Shown here piece by piece: positions 31,264-44,267 of a DNA stretch of 64,000 nt. The number at the start of each line of letters is the position of its first letter. The stretch's first letter is position 1. The notes beneath the pieces are model-generated. The model was not told the origin of the DNA, made no database searches, and was given only the letters and a program-made list of their open reading frames with translations. Location of the stretch: NCBI RefSeq assembly GCF_014202345.1, contig NZ_JACHGO010000001.1:310001-374000 (forward strand). Reading direction: 5' to 3'. A program made the translations under genes and the position numbers. Source of the stretch: Desulfovibrio intestinalis. Its GTDB lineage: Bacteria; Desulfobacterota; Desulfovibrionia; Desulfovibrionales; Desulfovibrionaceae.

Positions 31264-31458
31264 ATGGGTGCATTAAGTATACAGCATTTGCTGGTGGTGC
31301 TGGTTGTAGTACTGTTGTTGTTTGGCTCGAAAAAACTGCCTGAAATAGGCGGCGGGCTTGGCAGGGCTATCAAAAATTTCAAAAAGGCAACCACTGAGCC
31401 CGATGAAATTGACATAACTGCCCGCAATAACAGCAACGATAACAATAAATCTGCGTAA
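31264..31458 (+). CDS. tatA: Sec-independent translocase subunit TatA/TatE
   Basis: A 64-residue protein with an N-terminal membrane helix ([14 protein letters not shown], about 8-21), the conserved FG hinge, [19 protein letters not shown] amphipathic helix and a polar Asn/Asp-rich tail. It forms the pore of the twin-arginine translocation system in the inner membrane. GGAAGGA precedes the ATG. It stands alone, as often seen outside enterobacteria; tatB and tatC are not in the window. At least one predicted Tat substrate (the MBL protein at 37.7 kb) is. Confidence 0.93.
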
Positions 31459-32774: not shown

Positions 32775-33362
32775 TCAGCCTTTGAAATTATTAGCTGCAA
32801 AATCCCAGTTAACCAGTTTTTCGAAAAATGTCTCAATGAACTTGGGCCGGGCATTACGGTAGTCGATGTAGTAAGCGTGTTCCCATACATCAATGGTCAG
32901 AATGGGGGTGTCGCCAGTTTTCAGTGGGTTGCCAGCAGCGCCCAGGTTCTGGATTTCCAGCGCGCCGTCGGATTTTTTAACAAGATATGTCCAGCCTGAA
33001 CCAAAGTTGCCAGCGGCTTTGGCTGAAAAATCTTCCTTGAATTTGTCAAAGCTTCCCCACTGCGCGTTGATGGCGTCTGCCAGAGGGCACACGGGCTTTC
33101 CTCCGCCATTGGGCCGCAAACAGCTCCAGAAGAAGGTATGGTTCCATACTTGCGCGGCGTTGTTATAAATGCCTGAAGGAGGAGCTTTTTTGATTATATC
33201 CTCAAGAGACATGTCTTTATACTCGGTGCCTTCCTGAAGATTATTCAGGTTGGTTACATAGGCTCTATGGTGCTTGCCATAGTGGTATTCCATCGTTTCC
33301 TGTGAAATGGCTGGAGCCAGGGCGTCCATCGCATAGGGAAGTTCGGGCAGAATGCGTTCCAT
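32775..33362 (-). CDS. sodB: Superoxide dismutase, iron type
   Basis: A 195-residue cytoplasmic enzyme that dismutates superoxide. Metal ligands are visible at His27 (EYHYGKHH), the His of AAQVWNHTFFW near 75, and Asp/His of DVWEHAYYID near 157-161. The Gln in NNAAQVWNH and the GSGWTYLV segment favour the iron form. The length is standard. GGAG precedes the ATG, and a good promoter lies about 80 bp upstream. With the flavodiiron protein at 55.5 kb it forms part of the oxygen defence of an anaerobe. Confidence 0.94.
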   Translation of the reverse strand: MERILPELPYAMDALAPAISQETMEYHYGKHHRAYVTNLNNLQEGTEYKDMSLEDIIKKAPPSGIYNNAAQVWNHTFFWSCLRPNGGGKPVCPLADAINAQWGSFDKFKEDFSAKAAGNFGSGWTYLVKKSDGALEIQNLGAAGNPLKTGDTPILTIDVWEHAYYIDYRNARPKFIETFFEKLVNWDFAANNFKG

Positions 33363-33442
33363 TTTTAACTCCGTATGGTATTATTTCGTGTTGAAAAACA
33401 GACAGGCCAACTCCTTCTCCCCAAAAAACTTACTTCTACCAA

Positions 33443-33471
33443 ACCATAGCAGTTGATAATAGATAGTTCAA
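33443..33471 (-). promoter_or_regulatory. Sigma-70-like promoter of sodB
   Basis: On the minus strand TTGAAC, 17 bases, TATGGT, about 80 bp upstream of the sodB start. Confidence 0.55.
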
Positions 33472-33660
33472 TATTGCCTGCTACGGAATTGTCAGCATTG
33501 GTTTAAGGACGATTTAGACGCAAAAATAGCTGGAAAGGCGCTGATGGCGGCACTGTTTAGACTGGATTAATTGGGGGATGCTTCGCGCTTAAAAATTGCC
33601 GTTCAACCAAAAATGCAATCTTAGTCTGAATATACGGTGTGTTGCGGTGCGCTTTGCCCT

Positions 33661-33706
33661 AGGGGCTGTTTCTAAATAATTCTTTTGTCCAATTGGCTGC
33701 GTCAAA
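33661..33706 (+). repeat. Solo end of the dispersed 148-bp element
   Basis: About 46 bp that match, in opposite orientation, the right end of the complete element at 50884-51031: GGGCTGTT, AATAATTCTTTTG and CTGCGTCAAA are shared. The rest of the element is missing here. Confidence 0.65.
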
Positions 33707-33852
33707 TTTTATGTGAGGCTTTCAGGCGTGCGGAGGGCAGTGATCAGGAGGGGGATGGGTAAAGATAGATGAGGGCGCTCGTTTCCGTTCCATGCGGTCT
33801 GAAAAGAGTTTTTTTGTGGTTCTTGTGGAGTCTGCAGCATGAAGCACATATG

Positions 33853-35046
33853 TTAGGGGGTTCCTGGCCGGGGCTGCCAGCGCTGCAGCAGGCGGCCGAA
33901 GCCTGCTGCAATGTCCGCATAGTGGCTGTCGGCGTCTGGCCCAAAGGTCTTTGTCCGGTGACTGACCAAAATCAGGACTGCCAGCAATCCGTGCTCGTCG
34001 TAGAAGGGTTTGGCGTAGTATGACCGTATGCCCAGCGGCGCAAACAATGCCCAGTCAATGGATTTCACGCTGTCCTGCGTGTCTTCCACTAAAAGGTAGC
34101 TAAGCCCAAAGCGTTCAATATCCTGTGCTATGGTGCCTTCATAGGCATGGAGCGCGCCCCATTCCAGATCTTTGAACGCGCCACCCACACCGAAAACAGC
34201 TACTCGCCCCCTGTTGGACTGGATGTGCGAAAGCAGCATTCCGTCCACCTCCGGGCCGCATTGCGCGTACAATTCCTCCATTGCCACGCGCAATCCGCCG
34301 GGGCGCAGGGTTTTATCCGTCTCTTCAGTCTGCATAATGGGAAATTGTCTGGCGTCTACATTGACCAGGGCTGCCCGCACCACTTGCCCGTGGTGTCCGC
34401 CCCAGGGCGTCAGGCGTGCATGCGCCGAAAAAAGACCTCGTTCCGCATTGCCCAGCATGAGCTTGCCAGACCATGCATCGTTATTCACAGCTTTGTCGGC
34501 TGCGGCAAACAACTGCGTGCCCAGATCATCAGGAGCAGCGTCGCGCAAGGTCAATGTGCGCGACGCTTGCCCTTCACCCAAAAAAAGGCCGCGGGCCGCC
34601 GCATTGGCTTCTCTGATTTCGCGGGATTGCATGTCCAGAGTAAATACAGGGTAGTCCGCGTCGCCCACGTTCATGCGCAACTGTGCCTTATAACATTCCG
34701 CACCGTAGCCGCCGGGAAAAAAAGCTTCCTTGAGAAAACCGCTGTACAGATCTTCCTCCGGGCCGGGCCACCCCTGGAGCATAAGCGGCTTGCGTCCGCC
34801 GTCGGGCCGGATGCGAAAAATGGCCGAAGCCGGACGCGCCGCATGAATCATGTCCCAAAATTCCACCAGCAGCGGGTAGTCTTCAGAAACCACGATCTCT
34901 TTTCGGTAAGAGGCATTTTTGAGCAGCTGGGGGGCATCCACGCCCTCCAATTGCCAGCGCGTGAACAGCTTCAAGCGCGATTCGCGCTGCCGTATGCTCC
35001 ACAATAAACCGGGAAAACCGTTCCGCCATTGCGAAAAACGCGGCAT
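33853..35046 (-). CDS. PAS/GAF-like sensory protein without output domain
   Basis: A 397-residue soluble protein. Residues about 130-230 look PAS-like (YPVFTLDMQSREIREANAAARGLF), and 250-395 look GAF-like (ALFAPLGIRSYYAKPFYDEHGLLAVLILVSH). No kinase, GGDEF, HTH or methyl-accepting domain follows, so it may act by protein contact. The ATG at 35046 has AAGGAG at 5 bases. It is divergent from the GntR gene, and the shared upstream region holds palindromic sites, so it could belong to the same regulon. I do not recognise a named family. Confidence 0.6.
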   Translation of the reverse strand: MPRFSQWRNGFPGLLWSIRQRESRLKLFTRWQLEGVDAPQLLKNASYRKEIVVSEDYPLLVEFWDMIHAARPASAIFRIRPDGGRKPLMLQGWPGPEEDLYSGFLKEAFFPGGYGAECYKAQLRMNVGDADYPVFTLDMQSREIREANAAARGLFLGEGQASRTLTLRDAAPDDLGTQLFAAADKAVNNDAWSGKLMLGNAERGLFSAHARLTPWGGHHGQVVRAALVNVDARQFPIMQTEETDKTLRPGGLRVAMEELYAQCGPEVDGMLLSHIQSNRGRVAVFGVGGAFKDLEWGALHAYEGTIAQDIERFGLSYLLVEDTQDSVKSIDWALFAPLGIRSYYAKPFYDEHGLLAVLILVSHRTKTFGPDADSHYADIAAGFGRLLQRWQPRPGTP

Positions 35047-35383
35047 AGAAACTCCTTTTCTTGCAATCAATCTAGTTCCGCCGCTGCGTGGCTACTATGC
35101 AGGTAAGATAGATGGCAGGGAGGTTTTTTTCAATGTAGATTGGTTATACCAATTTTTTATTATGATTGGTTATACTGATAAACTGGGCGAAAAATAAGCT
35201 TTTATAACCTATAAAATTCTTTAAATTTTATTATGGTCATACCAGTTTTAAAAAAGTATTTTTTATTTTTCAATATATTAGATGCATACCAGACCAAAGC
35301 TGAAGGATTATTGCTACATTTTTTTAGAGCTGGCAGTATCAGGCACACAGAAAACACGCACAACGTTTTGCCAGGAGACGGTC
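35047..35383. other. AT-rich divergent regulatory region
   Basis: 337 bp between the PAS/GAF-like gene and the GntR gene, much richer in A and T than either. It has no gene but carries the operator-like palindromes listed separately. Confidence 0.6.
35140..35244. promoter_or_regulatory. Three TGGT-N3-ACCA operator-like sites
   Basis: Perfect TTGGT-TAT-ACCAA at 35140-35152, a near-perfect copy TTGGT-TAT-ACTGA at 35166-35178, and TGGT-CAT-ACCA at 35234-35244; a TACCA half-site follows at 35287. FadR-subfamily GntR regulators typically bind TGGTNNNACCA-like palindromes, so these are probably autoregulatory sites of the adjacent regulator. Confidence 0.6.
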
Positions 35384-36028
35384 ATGAACACGCCGGCAAA
35401 TACGGAACGCAGATTGGAACAGGCCCTGCTGCGGGGGAAATGGACGCTGTTTGAGCGGCTGCCCGCAGAGCGCCCTCTGGCTGAAGAGCTGGGCGTAAGC
35501 AGAGCCACCTTGCGCACGGCCCTGCATACCCTTGTGGGGCGGGGCATTCTGGAGACGCGCCGCGGCAGCGGAACCTTTGTGCGGGCATTGCCCTGCCGCG
35601 CCGACAGCACGGGCCTGGCCGACAGCCTGCGTGCCTTTCGTATTGTCATGCCGCCCCTGCTTTCCGCCATGGCCGGGACTCTTCCGCCATCAGTCATGCT
35701 GGCGCTGGAGCGCCATCTTCCTTCGGCAGGCATGGCCCTGCATGCTGGAGACATGCGGCTTTTCGCCCAAAATCATCTCCGTTTTTTCTCAACTCTTTTG
35801 CAGGCCACAGGCAACGCCCGTCTGGCGCAGGCCGGGGCCGCAACCCTGCCCGACGCCCATGCTCTGGCCCGTCTGCTGCAGGAAAGCAGCCATGTCCGGC
35901 TGGAAGAATTTTTCAAACATCTGGCTCGCACGCTGCACGGTTTGCGCCATGCGGATGCGCAGGCCACCACTGCTGCGGCGACCGCATATGCCTCTTGTCT
36001 TCTGCAATGCATGGGAGAAGAAGCGTGA
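35384..36028 (+). CDS. GntR-family transcriptional regulator (FadR/FCD type)
   Basis: A 214-residue regulator. The N-terminal winged helix (about 5-70) has [20 protein letters not shown] and a wing [13 protein letters not shown]. The all-helical C-terminal domain (about 85-210) resembles the FCD effector domain, which binds small carboxylates, often with a metal. The ATG at 35384 has AGGAG; the frame upstream is open but unlikely. It opens the operon with the membrane, MBL and CobW genes and is probably its regulator. Its stop overlaps the next start (GTGA). Confidence 0.82.
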
Positions 36029-36273
36029 CCTGCAAAAGCAGGCGAAATTTTCTGCGGGGGGTGTGGCGCGCGCAACCCCTGCCTATGGCTGCCGAGAGTA
36101 GGGCGGTTACTTCCGGGGACGAGCTTCCCGGTCTTCTACCGCCGGAATTCTCGCCGGCCATGCTGCGGCTGGAAGGGCAGCGCCTGGGACTGCCCGTGGA
36201 TACAATGGACAAGGAAGCTCTAGTCCGGGCCGTTGCGCAGGCCATGCGCGCCCCCGGCCGTCCGTCTGTGTGA
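36025..36273 (+). CDS. Small 82-residue protein of unknown function
   Basis: Starts at GTG, overlapping the GntR stop by 4 bp, with GGGAG upstream. The N-terminus [11 protein letters not shown] resembles a Tat motif, but no hydrophobic stretch follows, so export is doubtful. The C-terminal half ([19 protein letters not shown] then a short helix) is reminiscent of small accessory proteins of redox complexes. Its tight coupling to the regulator and membrane-protein genes argues that it is real. No family is recognised. Confidence 0.6.
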
Positions 36274-36304
36274 GCGGACAGCCTGTAACCCCGAGGAGGT
36301 CCCC

Positions 36305-37708
36305 GTGGCTGACCACGACATTCCCTATCTTGAGGAGCGCAAACTTATCAAACGCTGGCGAGGCCCTTTGCCCGTTCTGGCAAACATGGTCTTCACCCTG
36401 TTGATTTTTGCCGTTACCTGGTGGTTTTTTCAGGATCCGCGCGGTGTAATGCGTTTCTATACTCCCTATGTGGGCTACAACTATTGTCGCTGGTGGTTGG
36501 TTATTCTCATCTGGATGGCCTACATTTTCGACTTCTGGCCTTTCAAAAAAGACTGGATCCGCAACGCCCATCCCTTGCAGAAAGGGTTGGTGCTGTCTCT
36601 TATTTCTGTCGGCCTTATGATTGTTCTTATCCACGGATTTTTTGAAGGCGTTTTGGGCAATTTCGCTTTTGCCTATTTTAGCCCAACCCAGTTGCAGAAG
36701 CTGCCGGGGCTGACAGAATTTTACGCTGTAGAATACGCGGCACAGGCCTGCATGATGTTCGCGGTCATAGCCTCATGGCTTAGCCCCGCGTGGCTGGTCG
36801 CCCTGGAAGGCCGCCCCTGGCAGAACGAGCGCCAGCCCGTCAAGGGCTTCAGCATCTGGCTGGGCACCTTCTGCCTGAGCCTTGTGATCTACTTTATGAC
36901 CATGCACAACCATATGGGCATACTGTATTACCCCTGGCAGTACTTTACGGCCATCACACCGCCGTATTGGGAGAACTTCGCCCAGACCGTTTCCGCCAAC
37001 TTCCATGTGGCCTGGATCATGTGCTGCACGGTTGTGGTGTGGTTTATGGAAGGCATATGGGAGCGCTATCCCTTCTGCCTCATCAAAACTCCCTGGTTGC
37101 GGCGTTTTTCTCTCTTCTTCGGTATTATCGTCATCTCCGTATCTCTGTGCTTTTTCTTCTGGTACATGCAGGAACTGGTCTGGGGTGACGCCATTCGTGG
37201 TCACAAGCGTGATGCCGCGCCGGACTGGCGCTGGCTGCATGTGGGCGAAACGGCCATTTTCTTTCTGGTGCCCGCATTGTTCCTTCAGTTTTATTGCGGC
37301 AATTGGCCCAACAAGTTCAGCACACCTGTAAATATCCTGTTCCGCACGCTGCTTGTAGCCGTGGGGGGCATCATCATCTATTGCCTGTACTACCAGTATG
37401 CCCACTTCGTACTGGGCACGCAGAAAGGTTTTTCTCATCCGCAGCAATTTCCAATGATCCCAATGATCTGGCTTATCAATATCTGGCTCATCAACTGGTG
37501 GTTCATGGACGGCTGGCCCGGCTGGCGGCGTGAACTTCGCAGCGTTGAGGAAATCAGGGCCGATGAGCGCGACTTTGAAGAGCGCAGCGCCTGGAGCCCC
37601 GCTATGGTTCCCGGCTTGGTAGTTGGCATTATCGTTGGCGTAGCTGGCTATTTTGCCATTGTAGCGGCGTTGCCGTGGTTCAGCGCGCATTTTACCCTGG
37701 TGCAATAG
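36305..37708 (+). CDS. Integral membrane protein of unknown function, about 11 helices
   Basis: A 467-residue polytopic protein from a GTG start with a near-perfect Shine-Dalgarno (GAGGAGG, 5 bases). About 11 hydrophobic helices are visible, unusually rich in Trp, Tyr, Phe and His. Intramembrane or loop histidines include MTMHNHMGILYYPW, NFHVAW, RWLHVGE and QYAHFV. A cytoplasmic acidic/basic segment (RSVEEIRADERDFEERS) precedes the last helix. I do not recognise the family; His/aromatic clusters would suit a metal, haem or quinone site, but this is inference. Next in the operon, 9 bp away, is a Tat-exported MBL protein. Confidence 0.7.
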   Translation: MADHDIPYLEERKLIKRWRGPLPVLANMVFTLLIFAVTWWFFQDPRGVMRFYTPYVGYNYCRWWLVILIWMAYIFDFWPFKKDWIRNAHPLQKGLVLSLISVGLMIVLIHGFFEGVLGNFAFAYFSPTQLQKLPGLTEFYAVEYAAQACMMFAVIASWLSPAWLVALEGRPWQNERQPVKGFSIWLGTFCLSLVIYFMTMHNHMGILYYPWQYFTAITPPYWENFAQTVSANFHVAWIMCCTVVVWFMEGIWERYPFCLIKTPWLRRFSLFFGIIVISVSLCFFFWYMQELVWGDAIRGHKRDAAPDWRWLHVGETAIFFLVPALFLQFYCGNWPNKFSTPVNILFRTLLVAVGGIIIYCLYYQYAHFVLGTQKGFSHPQQFPMIPMIWLINIWLINWWFMDGWPGWRRELRSVEEIRADERDFEERSAWSPAMVPGLVVGIIVGVAGYFAIVAALPWFSAHFTLVQ

Positions 37709-37717
37709 GGGGAGATC

Positions 37718-38866
37718 ATGAATAGACGTGAATTCATCAAGGGTGCTGCTCTGGGCGTGGGCGTGGGGGCCATCGGCGCCATGGGAGCGTACTCGTATTC
37801 CCCCATGCGCAGAGCCTTTCTTCAAGACGTCAAGCGCGGCTCGACGGATATAGGCGTTTGCAAGGCCGTGCGCATTACCAACATTTCGGAAACGAGCTGG
37901 TTTGACAACGGTACTCTCATGCAGGATGTCACCGGTGCAGGCGGCCTGCTGGTGGACCAATACTCTTTTAACTGGGCGCCCTTCGGCAACGGCAAGGGAC
38001 TGGGCAAGGGCGGATATGCTGAAGGCATCAAACATATCAAGCATCTGCTGCCCCGCAGGCTGGACGAGGCATGGGACATCGCGCGTGAAAAGAGCGTGCA
38101 TGCCGATAATGCCGGGGGATTTTCCTGCCTGGTAGAAATTGAAGATATGGACGGTAAGGTCAACAAGTACCTTTTCGACTCTGGCTGGAATTATAAATGG
38201 ATGGATTCCTGCTACCAGCGGGAAGGCATTGATACGATGCTGGCCAATAATGAAATCAAGGCCTTCATCCAGACCCACGAACATATGGACCATTATTGGG
38301 GGTTTCCCGCCGTCACCAAGTACAATCCCAACATCCATGTGTACACGCCCAATACGTTTTATCCAGAGGGCAAGCAGTATCTGAAAGACTGCGGGCATGT
38401 GGGCAAATGGACGGAGGTGCCCAAGGGCTTGCACAAGCTTGAAAGTGGCGTGGCCCTGTATACCTTTGACTGCCCCATCATCTTCCGGGTTTTTGGGGAG
38501 CTTTCAATGTACTGCAACGTCAAGGATGTTGGGCTGGTGAGTATCACCGGCTGCTGCCACCAGGGCATCATCCTTTTTGCCGACACAGCCTACAAGGAAT
38601 TGGCCTATGAAAACGACCAGTTCTACGGCCTCTATGGCGGCCTGCACATTTCTCCTTTTGACGACTGGGATCCCAAGTACGACGACCTCGTCATCGGCCT
38701 CAAGAAGTGGGATCTCCAAAGAGTAGGCTGCAACCACTGCACAGGCCTCATCACGGCCCAGAAGTTCGTTGACGCGGGCTACCCTGTGGTCAAGGGCACG
38801 GCCCGGTTCCGCTCCAAAACTACCAACTATCTCGGTAATGGCGACGTGATCAAGTTCCCCTCCTGA
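37718..38866 (+). CDS. Tat-exported metallo-beta-lactamase-fold protein
   Basis: A 382-residue protein. The N-terminus NRREFIKG followed by a Gly/Ala hydrophobic stretch is a twin-arginine signal. The fold motif THEHMDH is near residues 186-192, followed by GCCHQGI, GGLHISPFD and GCNHCTG, a set that resembles the dihydropterin-phosphate synthase-like branch of MBL proteins (GCSHAGI, GGFHL, HCTG). Tat export means it is folded, and probably metallated, before reaching the periplasm. Substrate unknown. It lies between the membrane-protein gene and the CobW-type GTPase gene, which could supply metal. Confidence 0.82.
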   Translation: MNRREFIKGAALGVGVGAIGAMGAYSYSPMRRAFLQDVKRGSTDIGVCKAVRITNISETSWFDNGTLMQDVTGAGGLLVDQYSFNWAPFGNGKGLGKGGYAEGIKHIKHLLPRRLDEAWDIAREKSVHADNAGGFSCLVEIEDMDGKVNKYLFDSGWNYKWMDSCYQREGIDTMLANNEIKAFIQTHEHMDHYWGFPAVTKYNPNIHVYTPNTFYPEGKQYLKDCGHVGKWTEVPKGLHKLESGVALYTFDCPIIFRVFGELSMYCNVKDVGLVSITGCCHQGIILFADTAYKELAYENDQFYGLYGGLHISPFDDWDPKYDDLVIGLKKWDLQRVGCNHCTGLITAQKFVDAGYPVVKGTARFRSKTTNYLGNGDVIKFPS

Positions 38867-38883
38867 CCTTTTGCCTCTTTTTA

Positions 38884-38913
38884 CCGTAACCGGCTCCCAT
38901 GGGCCGGTTACGG
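38884..38913 (+). other. Intergenic hairpin between MBL and CobW genes
   Basis: A perfect 11-bp stem (CCGTAACCGGC/GCCGGTTACGG) with an 8-base loop and no T tract. It may act as a transcript-stability or attenuation element that lowers expression of the downstream GTPase gene. Confidence 0.5.
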
Positions 38914-38947
38914 AGGCAGGGCACATTGTGCCAAAGGAGTCGCCACC

Positions 38948-40795
38948 ATGCGTATGGAAAATCTTTTGCCGCGCCCTCTGGACCCGCAGGGCGGCCCGGA
39001 AAGTCCGTCCATCATGACAGCCCTGCTTTCGGGCATTCATCTTGACCGCAGGCAGGCCCATGCCCTGGGGTGGCGCGGAGTGCGCCCCTCGGCGCTGCAC
39101 GGGGCCGCCTGGACCTGCCGCACGGCCTCTGTTCCGCATATATACGGCCTTGTTTTTATGGACGAATATGTATGGGAGAAGCAGCTATACGGCATGTTTG
39201 GGTTTTATGTCTTTCCCGCAGCAGCAGACCCACTGCTGGACAAATTTCCCCTTCAGGCCCTGGCTGTAGCCCTTGGCCCAGACTACGGCGTGGCGGTGCG
39301 TGAACTTTCGGCCCATGCCGAGACTCTTGCCCCATTTTGTCTGGGGCAGATGAGGCTTGCAGCGGCATTGGATGGCTCATCACTGGCTCTGGAGCTGTCA
39401 GCTCAGGCCAGACACCGTGCCTTCAGCACGAAAGGCATTGCCGTACCCGCCAGCGACAAGGCAGACAGCGCCCCTGGAGACGAGCAAGAAACGCAGTGGA
39501 TTGTTGCTCCCGGCGAGCTGGAATATGATTTACCAGCTTTCAGGCTGCTGCTGCGGCCTTTCGCGGCCTTAGCGGGCACGGCAGCCGTTCTTTTGGACGA
39601 TGCCCCTCGTCTTGCCATGCGCGTGACGCCCAATCCCTTGGAACATCTGCATTGCGGGAAAGTTGAGCCTTCCTGGCAGATGCGTCTGGAAGCAGCCTTC
39701 GGCGCGGAGCAGGGGGATGAAATATCAATGGAACACAATGCCGGGAAGGCCGTTTTTTCCGTCCGTGGCAAGATTCTGTCAGGCCTGCCGGGGCGGTATG
39801 TGCCCAGAGAAGATGAATTGGCCCGCCTGCCGGTCATGCATGTACTCACAGGCTTTCTGGGGGCGGGCAAAACCACTTTTCTTCGCCGCTGGCTGGATTT
39901 TCTCAATGGTTGCGAGCAGTTTGCCGCAGTCATTCAAAATGAATTCGGTGCTATCGGCCTGGACGCCACCCTCACACGGGGCGAAACCAGGGTAGAACTG
40001 CTGGATGAAGGCTGCGTATGCTGCTCTTTGGCCGATAGTTTGCGTCCCGGCCTGCGCCGTCTGCTGGATGCCGCCCCGGCAGATCAGGTTATTCTTGAAA
40101 CCACGGGGGTGGCCAATCCCGCTAACGTTCTTGACTCGCTGGGCCAGTTGGCGGACATGGTTCGCCCCGGCCTCGTAATCACCGTGGTTGATGTGCTGGA
40201 ATGGCAGGGCAGCGTATGCGCCGGGGATGGTCCGCAGGGGTTGCGGCGGGTTCAGGTCGAACAGGCTGACGTTATCATAGCCAACAAAGCCGACATCGTT
40301 AGGGCGGAAGAGCTGCACGCCGTCATGGATGTTCTGCGCACCTGCAACGCCGAGGCAATAATCCTGCCCGCCGTGCAGGGCAATATCACCTTCGCCCGGT
40401 TGAATTCCTTTCTTGCGGGCTGGCTTGACCGCGGGGTTCGTCCTCCTTCGCGGCGGCCTCATCTGACGTTCTTGCCACAGGGGCTGTGCACACATACAGA
40501 TGAGGGGTTTGCCTCATACACTGTGCCCTTGTCGCAACCAGTGGATGCCAACACCCTGCGGGAGATGATCCTGGCTGCTGGGCCGGGGCTTTGCCGGGCC
40601 AAGGGCATTGTGAATCTTTTTAGCGAGGGCCGCGTGACGCCGATGGTTGTGCAATACGCTGCGGGGCGGCTGGAATTTGAAGAGGCTCCTGACGGAGAGC
40701 ACGAAATGTATATGGTCTTCATCGGGGTGAACCTGAGGATGCCAGATTCATCTGCAACAGAGAACAGGGAAAGCATGGCCGCATTGCCAAGATGA
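38948..40795 (+). CDS. CobW/COG0523-type G3E GTPase with long extra N-terminal region
   Basis: A 615-residue protein. Residues about 295-600 are a complete CobW-type metallochaperone GTPase: P-loop GFLGAGKTTF (near 301), the metal motif EGCVCCSL (CxCC), ETTGVANPANV, NKAD, and a C-terminal CobW domain. Such GTPases hand Zn, Co or Fe to target proteins. Residues 1-290 have no match that I recognise; this part is mixed alpha/beta without membrane helices. Ordinary family members are about 320 residues. AGGAG precedes the ATG. Being last in the operon with a Tat-exported metalloprotein, it may load that protein's metal in the cytoplasm. Confidence 0.82.
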   Translation: MRMENLLPRPLDPQGGPESPSIMTALLSGIHLDRRQAHALGWRGVRPSALHGAAWTCRTASVPHIYGLVFMDEYVWEKQLYGMFGFYVFPAAADPLLDKFPLQALAVALGPDYGVAVRELSAHAETLAPFCLGQMRLAAALDGSSLALELSAQARHRAFSTKGIAVPASDKADSAPGDEQETQWIVAPGELEYDLPAFRLLLRPFAALAGTAAVLLDDAPRLAMRVTPNPLEHLHCGKVEPSWQMRLEAAFGAEQGDEISMEHNAGKAVFSVRGKILSGLPGRYVPREDELARLPVMHVLTGFLGAGKTTFLRRWLDFLNGCEQFAAVIQNEFGAIGLDATLTRGETRVELLDEGCVCCSLADSLRPGLRRLLDAAPADQVILETTGVANPANVLDSLGQLADMVRPGLVITVVDVLEWQGSVCAGDGPQGLRRVQVEQADVIIANKADIVRAEELHAVMDVLRTCNAEAIILPAVQGNITFARLNSFLAGWLDRGVRPPSRRPHLTFLPQGLCTHTDEGFASYTVPLSQPVDANTLREMILAAGPGLCRAKGIVNLFSEGRVTPMVVQYAAGRLEFEEAPDGEHEMYMVFIGVNLRMPDSSATENRESMAALPR

Positions 40796-40819
40796 AAAAA
40801 GTCTGGGTAATTGCTATGG

Positions 40820-41517
40820 TCAGCAAGGCTCGGTCTGAAAAAAGTGCCCGCACAGGTATTGGGGCGGGTTCTTGTTTTTCCTGGTTTTCTTCCTGGCCGC
40901 GTGCTGTTGCACTGTTAATACACGCGGGGTTGATGCCGCCAAGGCAAATAATGCAAAGTACTTCATGCCCGCCATAACTAAGAAGACGCCGGGGATGCCG
41001 CAGTAGTAGCTGGCAAGAGTTCCAAGAAGAGCTGTCGCGCCATTACCGAAGTGGTTCCAGGCTTCATTTTTGCCAAGGCACGCTGGCAAACCCTTCTGGC
41101 CGATCATACCCAAAGTTATGCCGAAAAGCGTGGGGGCAATCGCCGCCGCCAAAGCCCCCTGCGAAATTCTTGAGGTCCAGACCGAAACCGCGTTGGTCCA
41201 TACAAAGACCAATCCGCAAGCCACTACAGTCATGATAACCGTGACGCCAAGGAGCCGCCGCTTTCTCTCGGCCCTGTCTGCAAGCCCGCCCAGAGGGTGG
41301 TGCGAAGCATTCCGGCTAGCCCCCCGGCGGTCATGACATGCCCGATTTCGTCAGGCAGCCAGCCCTTGCTTTGCAGAAAACGCCAAAGAACGGCCCCAAG
41401 CCATCCCGCACGTCGGCCAGCGCAAAGCACAGCTAGGAGAGGAAGGTCAGGGATCGTGCTTTGGACTGAGCGTACATAAAAAACCGCCTGAAATATTAAA
41501 AATGACGCACGATTCAT
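40820..41517 (-). pseudogene. Decayed MFS transporter gene
   Basis: Two minus-strand frames encode consecutive parts of one major-facilitator protein. The first (from 41517) reads through LQSKGWLPDEIGHVMTAGGLAG and then runs into a frameshift; the other frame continues as GGLADRAERKRRLL, which is the conserved MFS motif A, and then RISQGALAAAI and GKNEAWNHFGNGATALLG. The shift of one base lies at about 41285-41305. The protein also stops after about half the usual 400 residues. Both defects mean it is not functional. Confidence 0.75.
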
Positions 41518-41877
41518 ATTTATCTGCTGCTGCCGCGCAAGACAGAGCAACCGTGTGAGCTCCCTAAATTCATTTTGCCTGCATTGTCTTCGCCATAAAT
41601 TGCCTGCTTATTAAACTAGTTATGTGTACTGTTCCAACATGGGAAGCAGACTTCATAACATTCACACTCTTCTGAGGTTCGGCGTTATTATGCGTTGAGA
41701 ACAAGATCAGGAAAGTCGTTTTTTATGGCTTGAGTCGCCTGACAAGAAGGGGAAAAGGGCGGGTTGGTTGCCTGGGGGCCGTGAGAGGCAGTCGGATAAT
41801 AAAAAAGACATTGTGGCGAAAAAACCGCAACAGTGTCTAATTTTTTAATAATTTTTTGGAAGCAAGGATGTTCAGTA

Positions 41878-41971
41878 TGGCGGAGACGTATAGGGGTCGA
41901 ACCTACCGCAGACGGTAAAGCCTGCCACCGGTTTTGAAGACCGGGCGCCACACCGGTGGCGAAACGTCTCC
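41878..41971 (-). tRNA. selC: Selenocysteine tRNA (anticodon UCA)
   Basis: 94 bases including an encoded CCA end. The acceptor stem GGAGACGT pairs with the 3' ACGTCTCC in an 8-bp stem, as in tRNA-Sec. The anticodon loop CTTCAAA reads UCA, the long extra arm pairs around TTTACC, and the T loop is GGTTCGACCCC. The 8-bp acceptor stem and long variable arm distinguish it from ordinary suppressor-like tRNAs. SelA, which charges it with selenium, is encoded in this window. Confidence 0.95.
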
Positions 41972-42052
41972 TCATAATTATCTGTAGACTATGCGAAAAT
42001 AAAAAAACTCGCAAGTGTCGGTAATATTGTCCGCAAAGTGTTTTTTTACCCA

Positions 42053-42080
42053 TTGCCAAATTATAACTGAGCATTATATG
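42053..42080 (+). promoter_or_regulatory. Candidate sigma-70 promoter of the ftsH operon
   Basis: TTGCCA, 16 bases, TATATG, about 140 bp upstream of the ftsH start. Confidence 0.4.
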
Positions 42081-42218
42081 TGAAAAAACGTATTGCCGGT
42101 GAACAGTGGAATTCGGTCATTTGACAGCGGCCGTATGCAGGTAGTATTTCTTGCCTGCGTGGGCCAATGTTCAGGCCCTGACCATGCGCTGCCGCGCACG
42201 GAAAACGTAACGGAGGCA

Positions 42219-44267
42219 ATGTTGAACCAGATGAGTCGCAACCTGATGCTGTGGGCCATTATCGTCCTGGCAATGGTTATGCTTTTTAATATGTTCCAGC
42301 AACCGCAGGGCGTGATGCAGCGAGTGCCTTATTCAGACTTTCTGAGTCAGGTCGATGGCGGGCAGATTCTGTCTGTCACCATGCAAGGGCACACGCTCAC
42401 AGGTAAAACATCAGACGGCAAGACTGTGCAGACATATGCTCCGCAGGATCTGGGTCTGGTCAACCGCCTCATCGAAAAAAAGGTGGAGGTTAAGGCAGAG
42501 CCGCCGGAAGAGCAGCCCTGGTATATGACCTTGCTGGTTTCGTGGTTCCCCATGCTGCTTCTTGTTGGCGTGTGGATTTTCTTTATGCGCCAGATGCAGG
42601 GCGGCGGCGGCAAGGCCATGAATTTTGGCCGGTCGCGTGCGCGCATGCTCAATCAGGACAGCGTAAGGATTACCTTTGCTGACGTGGCCGGAATTGACGA
42701 GGCCAAGGATGAATTGGCCGAAGTTGTCGAATTTTTGTCCAATCCCAAAAAGTTTACCCGTCTTGGCGGGCGTATCCCCAAAGGCGTGTTGCTTGTGGGG
42801 CCTCCTGGCACGGGTAAGACGCTTCTTGCGCGCGCAGTTGCCGGTGAGGCGGGGGTGCCCTTCTTTTCCATTTCAGGCTCAGACTTTGTTGAAATGTTTG
42901 TGGGCGTGGGCGCTTCGCGCGTGCGCGATCTTTTTGTACAGGGCAAAAAAAATGCTCCCTGCCTTATCTTTATTGACGAAATTGACGCCGTGGGCCGTCA
43001 GCGTGGAGCCGGGCTCGGCGGTGGCCACGACGAGCGTGAGCAGACACTGAACCAGATGCTGGTTGAAATGGACGGTTTTGAAAGCAATGAGGGCGTTATT
43101 CTTATTGCCGCCACCAACCGTCCTGACGTGCTTGACCCTGCGTTGCTGCGTCCTGGCCGCTTTGACCGTCAGGTTGTTGTGCCCACGCCAGACCTGCGTG
43201 GTCGCCGTCGTATTCTTGAGGTACACACCAAGCGTACGCCTTTGTCTGGCGATGTGGATCTGGAGGTTCTGGCGCGCGGCACACCGGGTTTCTCGGGTGC
43301 GGATCTGGAAAATCTGGTCAACGAGGCTGCTTTGCAGGCTGCCAAGCTGAATCAGGACAGACTGGATATGCACGATTTTGAATACGCCAAAGATAAAGTG
43401 CTTATGGGGCGCGAACGCCGCAGCCTTCTTTTGTCTGACGACGAAAAGCGCATCACGGCCTATCATGAGGGCGGTCACGCCTTGGCGGCCCGTCTGCTGC
43501 CCGGGTCTGACCCGGTGCACAAGATCACCATCATCCCCCGTGGCCGCGCCTTGGGCGTAACCATGCAGTTGCCTGAAGAAGACCGCCACGGTTACTCGCG
43601 TTCCTTCCTGCGCAACAACTTGGTGGTGCTGCTGGGGGGCCGGGTGGCTGAGGAAATTATTTTTGACGATATCACCACTGGCGCTTCCAATGACATTGAG
43701 CGCGTCACCCGCATGGCCCGTAAAATGGTGTGCGAGTGGGGCATGAGTGAAGCCGTAGGTACTCTTGCCATCGGTGAAACAGGTGAAGAAGTATTTATTG
43801 GCCGCGAGTGGGTGCAGAACAAGAACTTCAGTGAAGACACCGCCCGTCTGGTGGATTCGGAAGTAAAGCGGATTGTGGACGAGGCGCATGAGCGCTGCCG
43901 CGTACTGCTCAAAGAGAATGAAGAAATCCTGCACCGTATTGCCCGCGCCCTGCTGGATCGCGAAACCATCACTGGCGAAGAACTTGACCTTCTGATGGAA
44001 GACAAGGAACTGCCGCCTCTGGATGGTAACGGCAAGCCCATGAAATATTCTGAAGCGCCCAGCCGTCCGAGCAAGGGCAGTGGAGAGGATAAGCCTGCGG
44101 AAGCCACGGCCGAGGCTCCTGCTGCTGATGCGGCAGAATTTACCCTTGAGCCTGACCACCTCGACGGTTCCGTTGCTCCTCACGAAGCGCCCACATCGGC
44201 TGGGGGCGTCGAGTCAGAGGCAGAAAAGGCTTCGGGCCAGAACGGCGAAGACGACAAGAAGCGATAG
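42219..44267 (+). CDS. ftsH: ATP-dependent zinc metalloprotease FtsH
   Basis: A 682-residue membrane-anchored AAA+ protease. Two membrane helices (about 10-27 and 105-124) flank a periplasmic domain. Walker A is GPPGTGKT, Walker B is [13 protein letters not shown], and the zinc site reads HEGGH instead of the nearly universal HEAGH. The C-terminal tail is rich in Glu, Ala and Pro. It degrades membrane and regulatory proteins. GGAGG precedes the start, which could be ATG 42219, TTG 42222 or ATG 42231. The ftsH-folP-cdaA-ybbR-glmM order is common in related bacteria. Confidence 0.95.

Follow-up and report, generated by a model that had tools for sequence, protein, structure and literature searches.

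What do five same-strand genes at positions 35384–40795 of a 64,000-nucleotide stretch of Desulfovibrio intestinalis DNA (the window) do together, and do they belong together at all? The original prediction described an operon, and all five genes were found at those positions: a GntR-family regulator (35384–36028, +; Pfam GntR, E 3.6e-17), a small 82-aa SRRxF protein (36025–36273, +; GTG start), the 467-aa membrane protein MEM (36305–37708, +; GTG start), a 382-aa Tat-exported MBL-fold protein (37718–38866, +) and a 615-aa protein with CobW domains (38948–40795, +). From GntR to CobW the junctions measure −4, 31, 9 and 81 nt, and the first three genes are coupled or closely spaced as described, with the small ORF overlapping the GntR stop by 4 nt and MEM following after 31 nt. 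The Pfam GntR domain begins at residue 41 of a longer ORF (35402), and the GntR ATG at 35384 therefore fits. The predicted operon make-up stood for these five genes and was incomplete beyond them: it lacked a divergent PAS-like gene (33853–35046, −; an ATG with an AGGAG-like site at 35046 is preferred, and a TTG would extend the ORF to 35070), the ExbB-ExbD-TonB genes often found in relatives, a set of operator palindromes and a separate module (NTD) within the CobW protein. None of the papers listed by our searches of a PMC library, which does not cover subscription papers, deals with the cassette.

In GTDB contigs we confirmed 156 relatives and kept the best 80 of them; these belong to class A, the class of the window locus. 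Gene presence in these 80 loci was scored by six-frame searches with profiles trained on the same loci. MBL lies downstream of MEM on the same strand in 80/80, and the long NTD-CobW protein lies downstream in 77/80, or 77/77 where at least 1.4 kb of contig follows; the three loci without CobW have less than 1.4 kb. A profile built from motif-bearing ORFs of the same loci picks up an ORF similar to the small protein upstream of MEM in 54/80. Named hosts include Desulfovibrio, Bilophila, Mailhella, Parasutterella, Sutterella, Malonomonas, Rhodoplanes, Rhodobium, Desulfobacterales and others, many of them MAGs, and the names of the records span at least five phyla. The gene set is thus conserved rather than confined to one strain.

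The remaining genes are less regular. Across the 80 loci we found GntR in 48, the PAS-like gene in 44, ExbB in 30, ExbD in 30, TonB in 29, a family denoted f131 in 15 and a NifX-like metal-cluster protein in 10. Among the 49 complete loci, those with long flanking sequence to either side, the counts are GntR 36, PAS-like 35, ExbB 22, ExbD 22 and TonB 21, placing ExbB-ExbD-TonB in about half. The PAS-like gene accompanies GntR in 35/36 complete loci and is present in 0/13 without GntR, while ExbB occurs in 18/36 and 4/13, respectively. Close relatives (L003, L104, L105, L106) carry exbB-exbD-tonB; the window and its relative L002 lack them, and the nearest ExbB-like genes in the window's genome are 37–41% identical over part of the protein.

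We read the flanks of class A loci from 165 neighbour genes, choosing 82 plus-strand genes and scanning 73 of them (left out: L047:15028, L055:8684, L055:9726, L062:16635, L066:4153, L068:3974, L075:279, L081:4195 and L081:15332). No catabolic genes stand out among these 73/82 neighbours, and signalling domains lead. Four class A loci in different genera share one chemoreceptor sensor (41–56% identical), as would be expected for an external small molecule. The families in L045 and L059 first taken for chemoreceptors turned out to be elongation factor G. Methylmalonyl-CoA mutase is found beside class A only in L064, about 3 kb off. DsrC-domain proteins adjoin the cassette in two Desulfobacterota-type loci, L055 and L047, and DsrC was confirmed for L047.

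More distant forms of MEM reveal which partners persist. MEM is matched in 27/297 genomes of the phylum: class A accounts for 11 of them, all full-length, class B for 6 and class C for 9 others, and 1 match is a fragment at a contig end (G023). Class B members are 23–29% and class C members 22–23% identical to the window MEM. A class B MEM profile recovers class A members at 2e-89 to 1e-80 and class C members at 3e-34 to 2e-25, and because it recovers both, we treat the three classes as one superfamily. Class B loci retain a Tat-type MBL (6/6; 42–44% identical to the window MBL), a free-standing NTD protein without the GTPase (6/6; 2.7e-8 to 8.8e-23), which ends in a Cys/His-rich tail in 5/6, and the small protein (5/6, with weak scores). 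Since they are kept across classes A and B, MEM, the exported MBL and NTD form the core, with the small SRRxF protein a weaker member.

This pairing bears directly on whether the genes are unrelated neighbours, brought together by chance or recent common descent. Within the genus the cassette is indeed patchy, with MEM in 5/36 other genomes, as such a reading would have it; yet the genes stay paired in both class A and class B, whose MEM proteins share 23–29% identity, and across at least five phyla, which makes this reading highly improbable overall and already refuted for MEM, MBL and NTD.

Class C presents a different setting. A six-frame search found MBL, NTD, CobW and the small protein in 0/6 class C loci, and five further loci gave only a 14-bit MBL match, to an unrelated gene in L204. 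In 8 of 11 class C loci, a gene neighbouring MEM on the same strand encodes an acyl-CoA ligase (L098, L099, L102, L204), a CoA-transferase (L101, L103, L205) or an acyl-CoA dehydrogenase (L100); in L206 the ligase lies farther off, L207 has none, and L208 ends at a contig edge. These CoA-enzyme neighbours point to carboxylic acids for the MEM superfamily. Because class C lacks MBL, CobW and NTD, this context may not carry over to class A. Methylmalonyl-CoA mutase genes also lie near class C MEM in L098, L101 and L103, confirmed for L103 and noted by eye in the others.

The membrane protein itself was described as having 11 helices and no recognised family, and both points hold: MEM shows 11 hydrophobic peaks and 11 predicted helices of membrane-spanning length, and matches neither Pfam nor NCBIfam at E≤1, nor any PDB sequence. 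Eight class B and C members likewise match no permease family, and 438 protein clusters resemble MEM. The label "AAT family amino acid transporter", given by JGI to some homologues, finds no support in Pfam. Among 73 class A rows, H201, H203, H312, H367 and H378 are invariant and H234 is conserved at 0.99; all six are predicted on the periplasmic side, in or next to loops with conservation of 0.86–0.91 and low model confidence. H312 is the sole invariant His across the three classes, the extra His not being kept in B and C. The topology is not beyond doubt, because loop 4, predicted to be periplasmic, carries as much positive charge as the cytosolic loops. An internal repeat of five helical hairpins, suspected from WPFxxLxQPxxG in class C, is not claimed: the best in-phase pairs in a comparison of profiles had probabilities of 74% over 22 columns and 57% over 63, and half-shifted control segments reached 68%.

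These histidines invite a second reading of the cassette, a membrane redox or hydrolytic complex in which the periplasmic His of MEM hold metal or haem and pass electrons or substrate to MBL. The six conserved His, the many Trp and Tyr close to the predicted periplasmic face and the physiology of the named hosts, largely respiring anaerobes, are all consistent with it. Among solved structures, Foldseek found none at E≤0.001 for either MEM or NTD. On a fold shared with NrfD-like or alternative complex III membrane subunits, the top two rows for MEM, non-significant, are subunits of the latter complex (6lod_C, E 0.027, TM 0.18; 6btm_C, E 0.13). These scores, however, lie within noise, no cytochrome or Fe-S partner is found among the recurrent genes, and only H312 is held in common with class C MEM. 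We consider such a complex unlikely.

The MBL-fold protein was predicted to carry a twin-arginine signal and GCxHxGI/HCTG motifs, and it does. Its Tat signal, a twin-arginine motif with a hydrophobic stretch, scores 19.9 bits against the NCBIfam TIGR01409 cut-off of 16.7, and its HxHxDH, GCCHQGI and NHCTG motifs supply metal ligands invariant over eight sequences of classes A and B. Profile matches in PDB (7dck, 2.2e-17; 2p4z, 3.1e-17; 3h3e, 3.1e-5) place it in the TM1679/2p4z/7dck branch, whose metal-ligand motifs it shares; it differs from those proteins in being longer, in its Tat signal and in its tie to MEM. At E≤1e-40 the MBL profile matches 34/297 genomes of the phylum. The 17 top scores (≥461 bits) come from exactly those 17 genomes whose MEM is full-length and of class A or B; the remaining 17 (≤444 bits) have no such MEM. 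We read 15 of these 17 MEM-less neighbourhoods. Six lie near a SelD-like gene (L193–L196, L202, L203), with AIRS domains confirmed in one; these MBL relatives, judged mostly by eye, are shorter and without a Tat signal, and DoxX-like genes accompany 5/6. One (L192) adjoins an ABC uptake system with a periplasmic binding protein and a CoA ligase, another (L198) adjoins a TRAP system, and the others have mixed neighbourhoods; 13/15 have no adjoining uptake system.

The last gene was taken to encode a CobW-type metal chaperone. The CobW domains are there, and the description is incomplete for the N-terminal half. The G3E GTPase (cobW) domain (residues 297–472; 117.6 bits) and CobW_C (521–597; 37.3 bits) both exceed Pfam cut-offs, the G3E P-loop and CxCC motif (GCVCC in the window protein) are kept in >80% of 71 homologues, and the best PDB relative is YjiA (1nij, E 7.8e-22). 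The protein scores far under the NCBIfam cut-offs for CobW and ZigA, and identity as true CobW, the cobalt chaperone for cobalamin, was rejected (TIGR02475, 91.4 bits against 332.1). It thus shares the cobW and CobW_C domains, P-loop and CxCC with COG0523/G3E GTPases (CobW, YjiA, ZigA) and differs in an extra domain of ~280 aa (~15–294) ahead of the GTPase. COG0523 proteins, according to a passage of Haas 2009 (PMC2770081), have the GTPase as their N-terminal part. NTD matches no Pfam, NCBIfam or PDB sequence family. The N-terminal half is a new domain in its own right, able to stand apart from the GTPase as it does in class B, and would offer a COG0523 protein whose client can be guessed via gene order.

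The cassette also appears to carry its own regulation. Upstream of GntR, two perfect TGGTNNNACCA palindromes, TGGTTATACCA (35141–35151) and TGGTCATACCA (35234–35244), lie 93 bp apart. At least one TGGTNNNACCA palindrome occurs within 500 bp upstream of GntR in 43/52 loci (0.25 expected by block shuffles) and two or more in 23/52 (0.00 expected); 9/52 have none within this distance. The motif was set from 13 of the 52 loci already looked at, and in the 39 independent of that setting palindromes were found in 34. A pair spacing of 93–96 bp is shared by the window and L002, L003, L004, L006, L104, L105 and L106. By the narrower pattern TGGTNWKACCA, a close pair is found only at the cassette locus in four genomes. 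Single TGGTNWKACCA sites are no commoner in these genomes than control (12/11 vs 11/12 in the window's own genome), and a wider regulon was rejected. FadR/FCD-type GntR regulators have operators of the form TNGTNNNACNA. In comparison, the window regulator has the HTH above cut-off, an FCD domain under cut-off (21.5 bits against 24.3) and palindromic operators upstream. The PAS-like protein matches PAS_4 only weakly, at 19.3 bits against a cut-off of 23.1, and the small protein bears, by eye, a Tat-like SRRNFLRG motif without a hydrophobic stretch.

We propose that MEM represents a new membrane protein superfamily at the centre of a horizontally spread, self-regulated cassette. In our preferred reading, held tentatively and with less than even confidence, the NTD-GTPase would supply MBL with metal in the cytosol, Tat would export the loaded protein, and MBL would then act on the periplasmic side of MEM, probably in the uptake of organic acids. 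GntR and the PAS-like protein would control both divergent transcripts by binding the two TGGTNNNACCA operators. MBL would fold in the cytosol and receive its metal from the fused NTD-CobW GTPase; in class B, NTD alone, with its Cys/His-rich tail, may do a related job. The loaded protein would leave via its Tat signal, and the small SRRxF protein, as a twin-arginine mimic, may act as chaperone or decoy. In the periplasm MBL would dock with the conserved MEM loops bearing the six class A His, and together, as suggested mainly by class C context, they could import a small organic acid or an MBL-released product, possibly helped at the outer membrane by ExbB-ExbD-TonB where present. The persistence of MBL and NTD with MEM in distant relatives fits metal loading before export. 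Organic-acid uptake is a first guess for class A, at modest odds, because of the class C context and the shared chemoreceptor.

Two known systems offer comparisons. NiFe hydrogenase maturation involves GTPase-assisted metal loading ahead of Tat export. The cassette likewise joins a GTPase metal helper, a Tat-exported metalloprotein and a membrane partner, by analogy only, but no hydrogenase, HypB or known Tat chaperone is found among its recurrent genes. As in TRAP and branched-chain ABC carboxylate uptake, a periplasmic protein accompanies a polytopic membrane protein under an organic-acid-type local regulator, and two MBL relatives adjoin such systems; here, however, MBL would replace the binding protein, and MEM belongs to no known permease family.

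The same components could instead serve metal acquisition, with TonB and MEM importing a scarce metal or metal-carboxylate, MBL as periplasmic carrier and NTD-CobW as cytosolic receiver. The CobW GTPase, ExbB-ExbD-TonB in 21–22 of the 49 complete loci, the NifX-like protein in 10/80 and the six MEM His are what such a pathway might contain. The operators are, however, of GntR type, and no Rfam riboswitch was found at gathering score in six relatives or at E≤1 in the window (33000–42500); half of the complete loci are without TonB genes, class C MEM sits among CoA enzymes, and H312 alone is invariant in classes B and C. We regard metal acquisition as improbable. If organic-acid uptake with a pre-loaded MBL is correct, a widespread anaerobe cassette built on a membrane family absent from Pfam, NCBIfam and PDB becomes testable, with a defined operator, a dedicated metal helper bearing a new domain and an exported enzyme together in one operon.

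We built MEM and MBL trees from 44 selected loci, with an arbitrary root. Six Sutterellaceae rows and one Alcaligenaceae row fall with gut Desulfovibrionaceae in a clade of 20 (support 100/98 for MEM, 100/100 for MBL) that stands apart from Pseudodesulfovibrio and Halodesulfovibrio. The cassette is thus shared, within one strongly supported clade, by gut Desulfovibrionaceae and by Sutterellaceae of another phylum, and a role in gut life is therefore probable.

Three further features lie near the window locus. A TatA-like ORF of 64 residues, recognised by eye (31264–31458, +), lies 4 kb upstream of the Tat substrate, and a similar ORF occurs near just one other cassette locus (L015). A selenocysteine tRNA gene (RF01852, 79.5 bits; 41882–41971, −) lies 1.1 kb downstream of the CobW gene. 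A short ORF adjoining the cassette end (40820–41233, −) resembles, by eye, a piece of a membrane transporter and is possibly a decayed gene.
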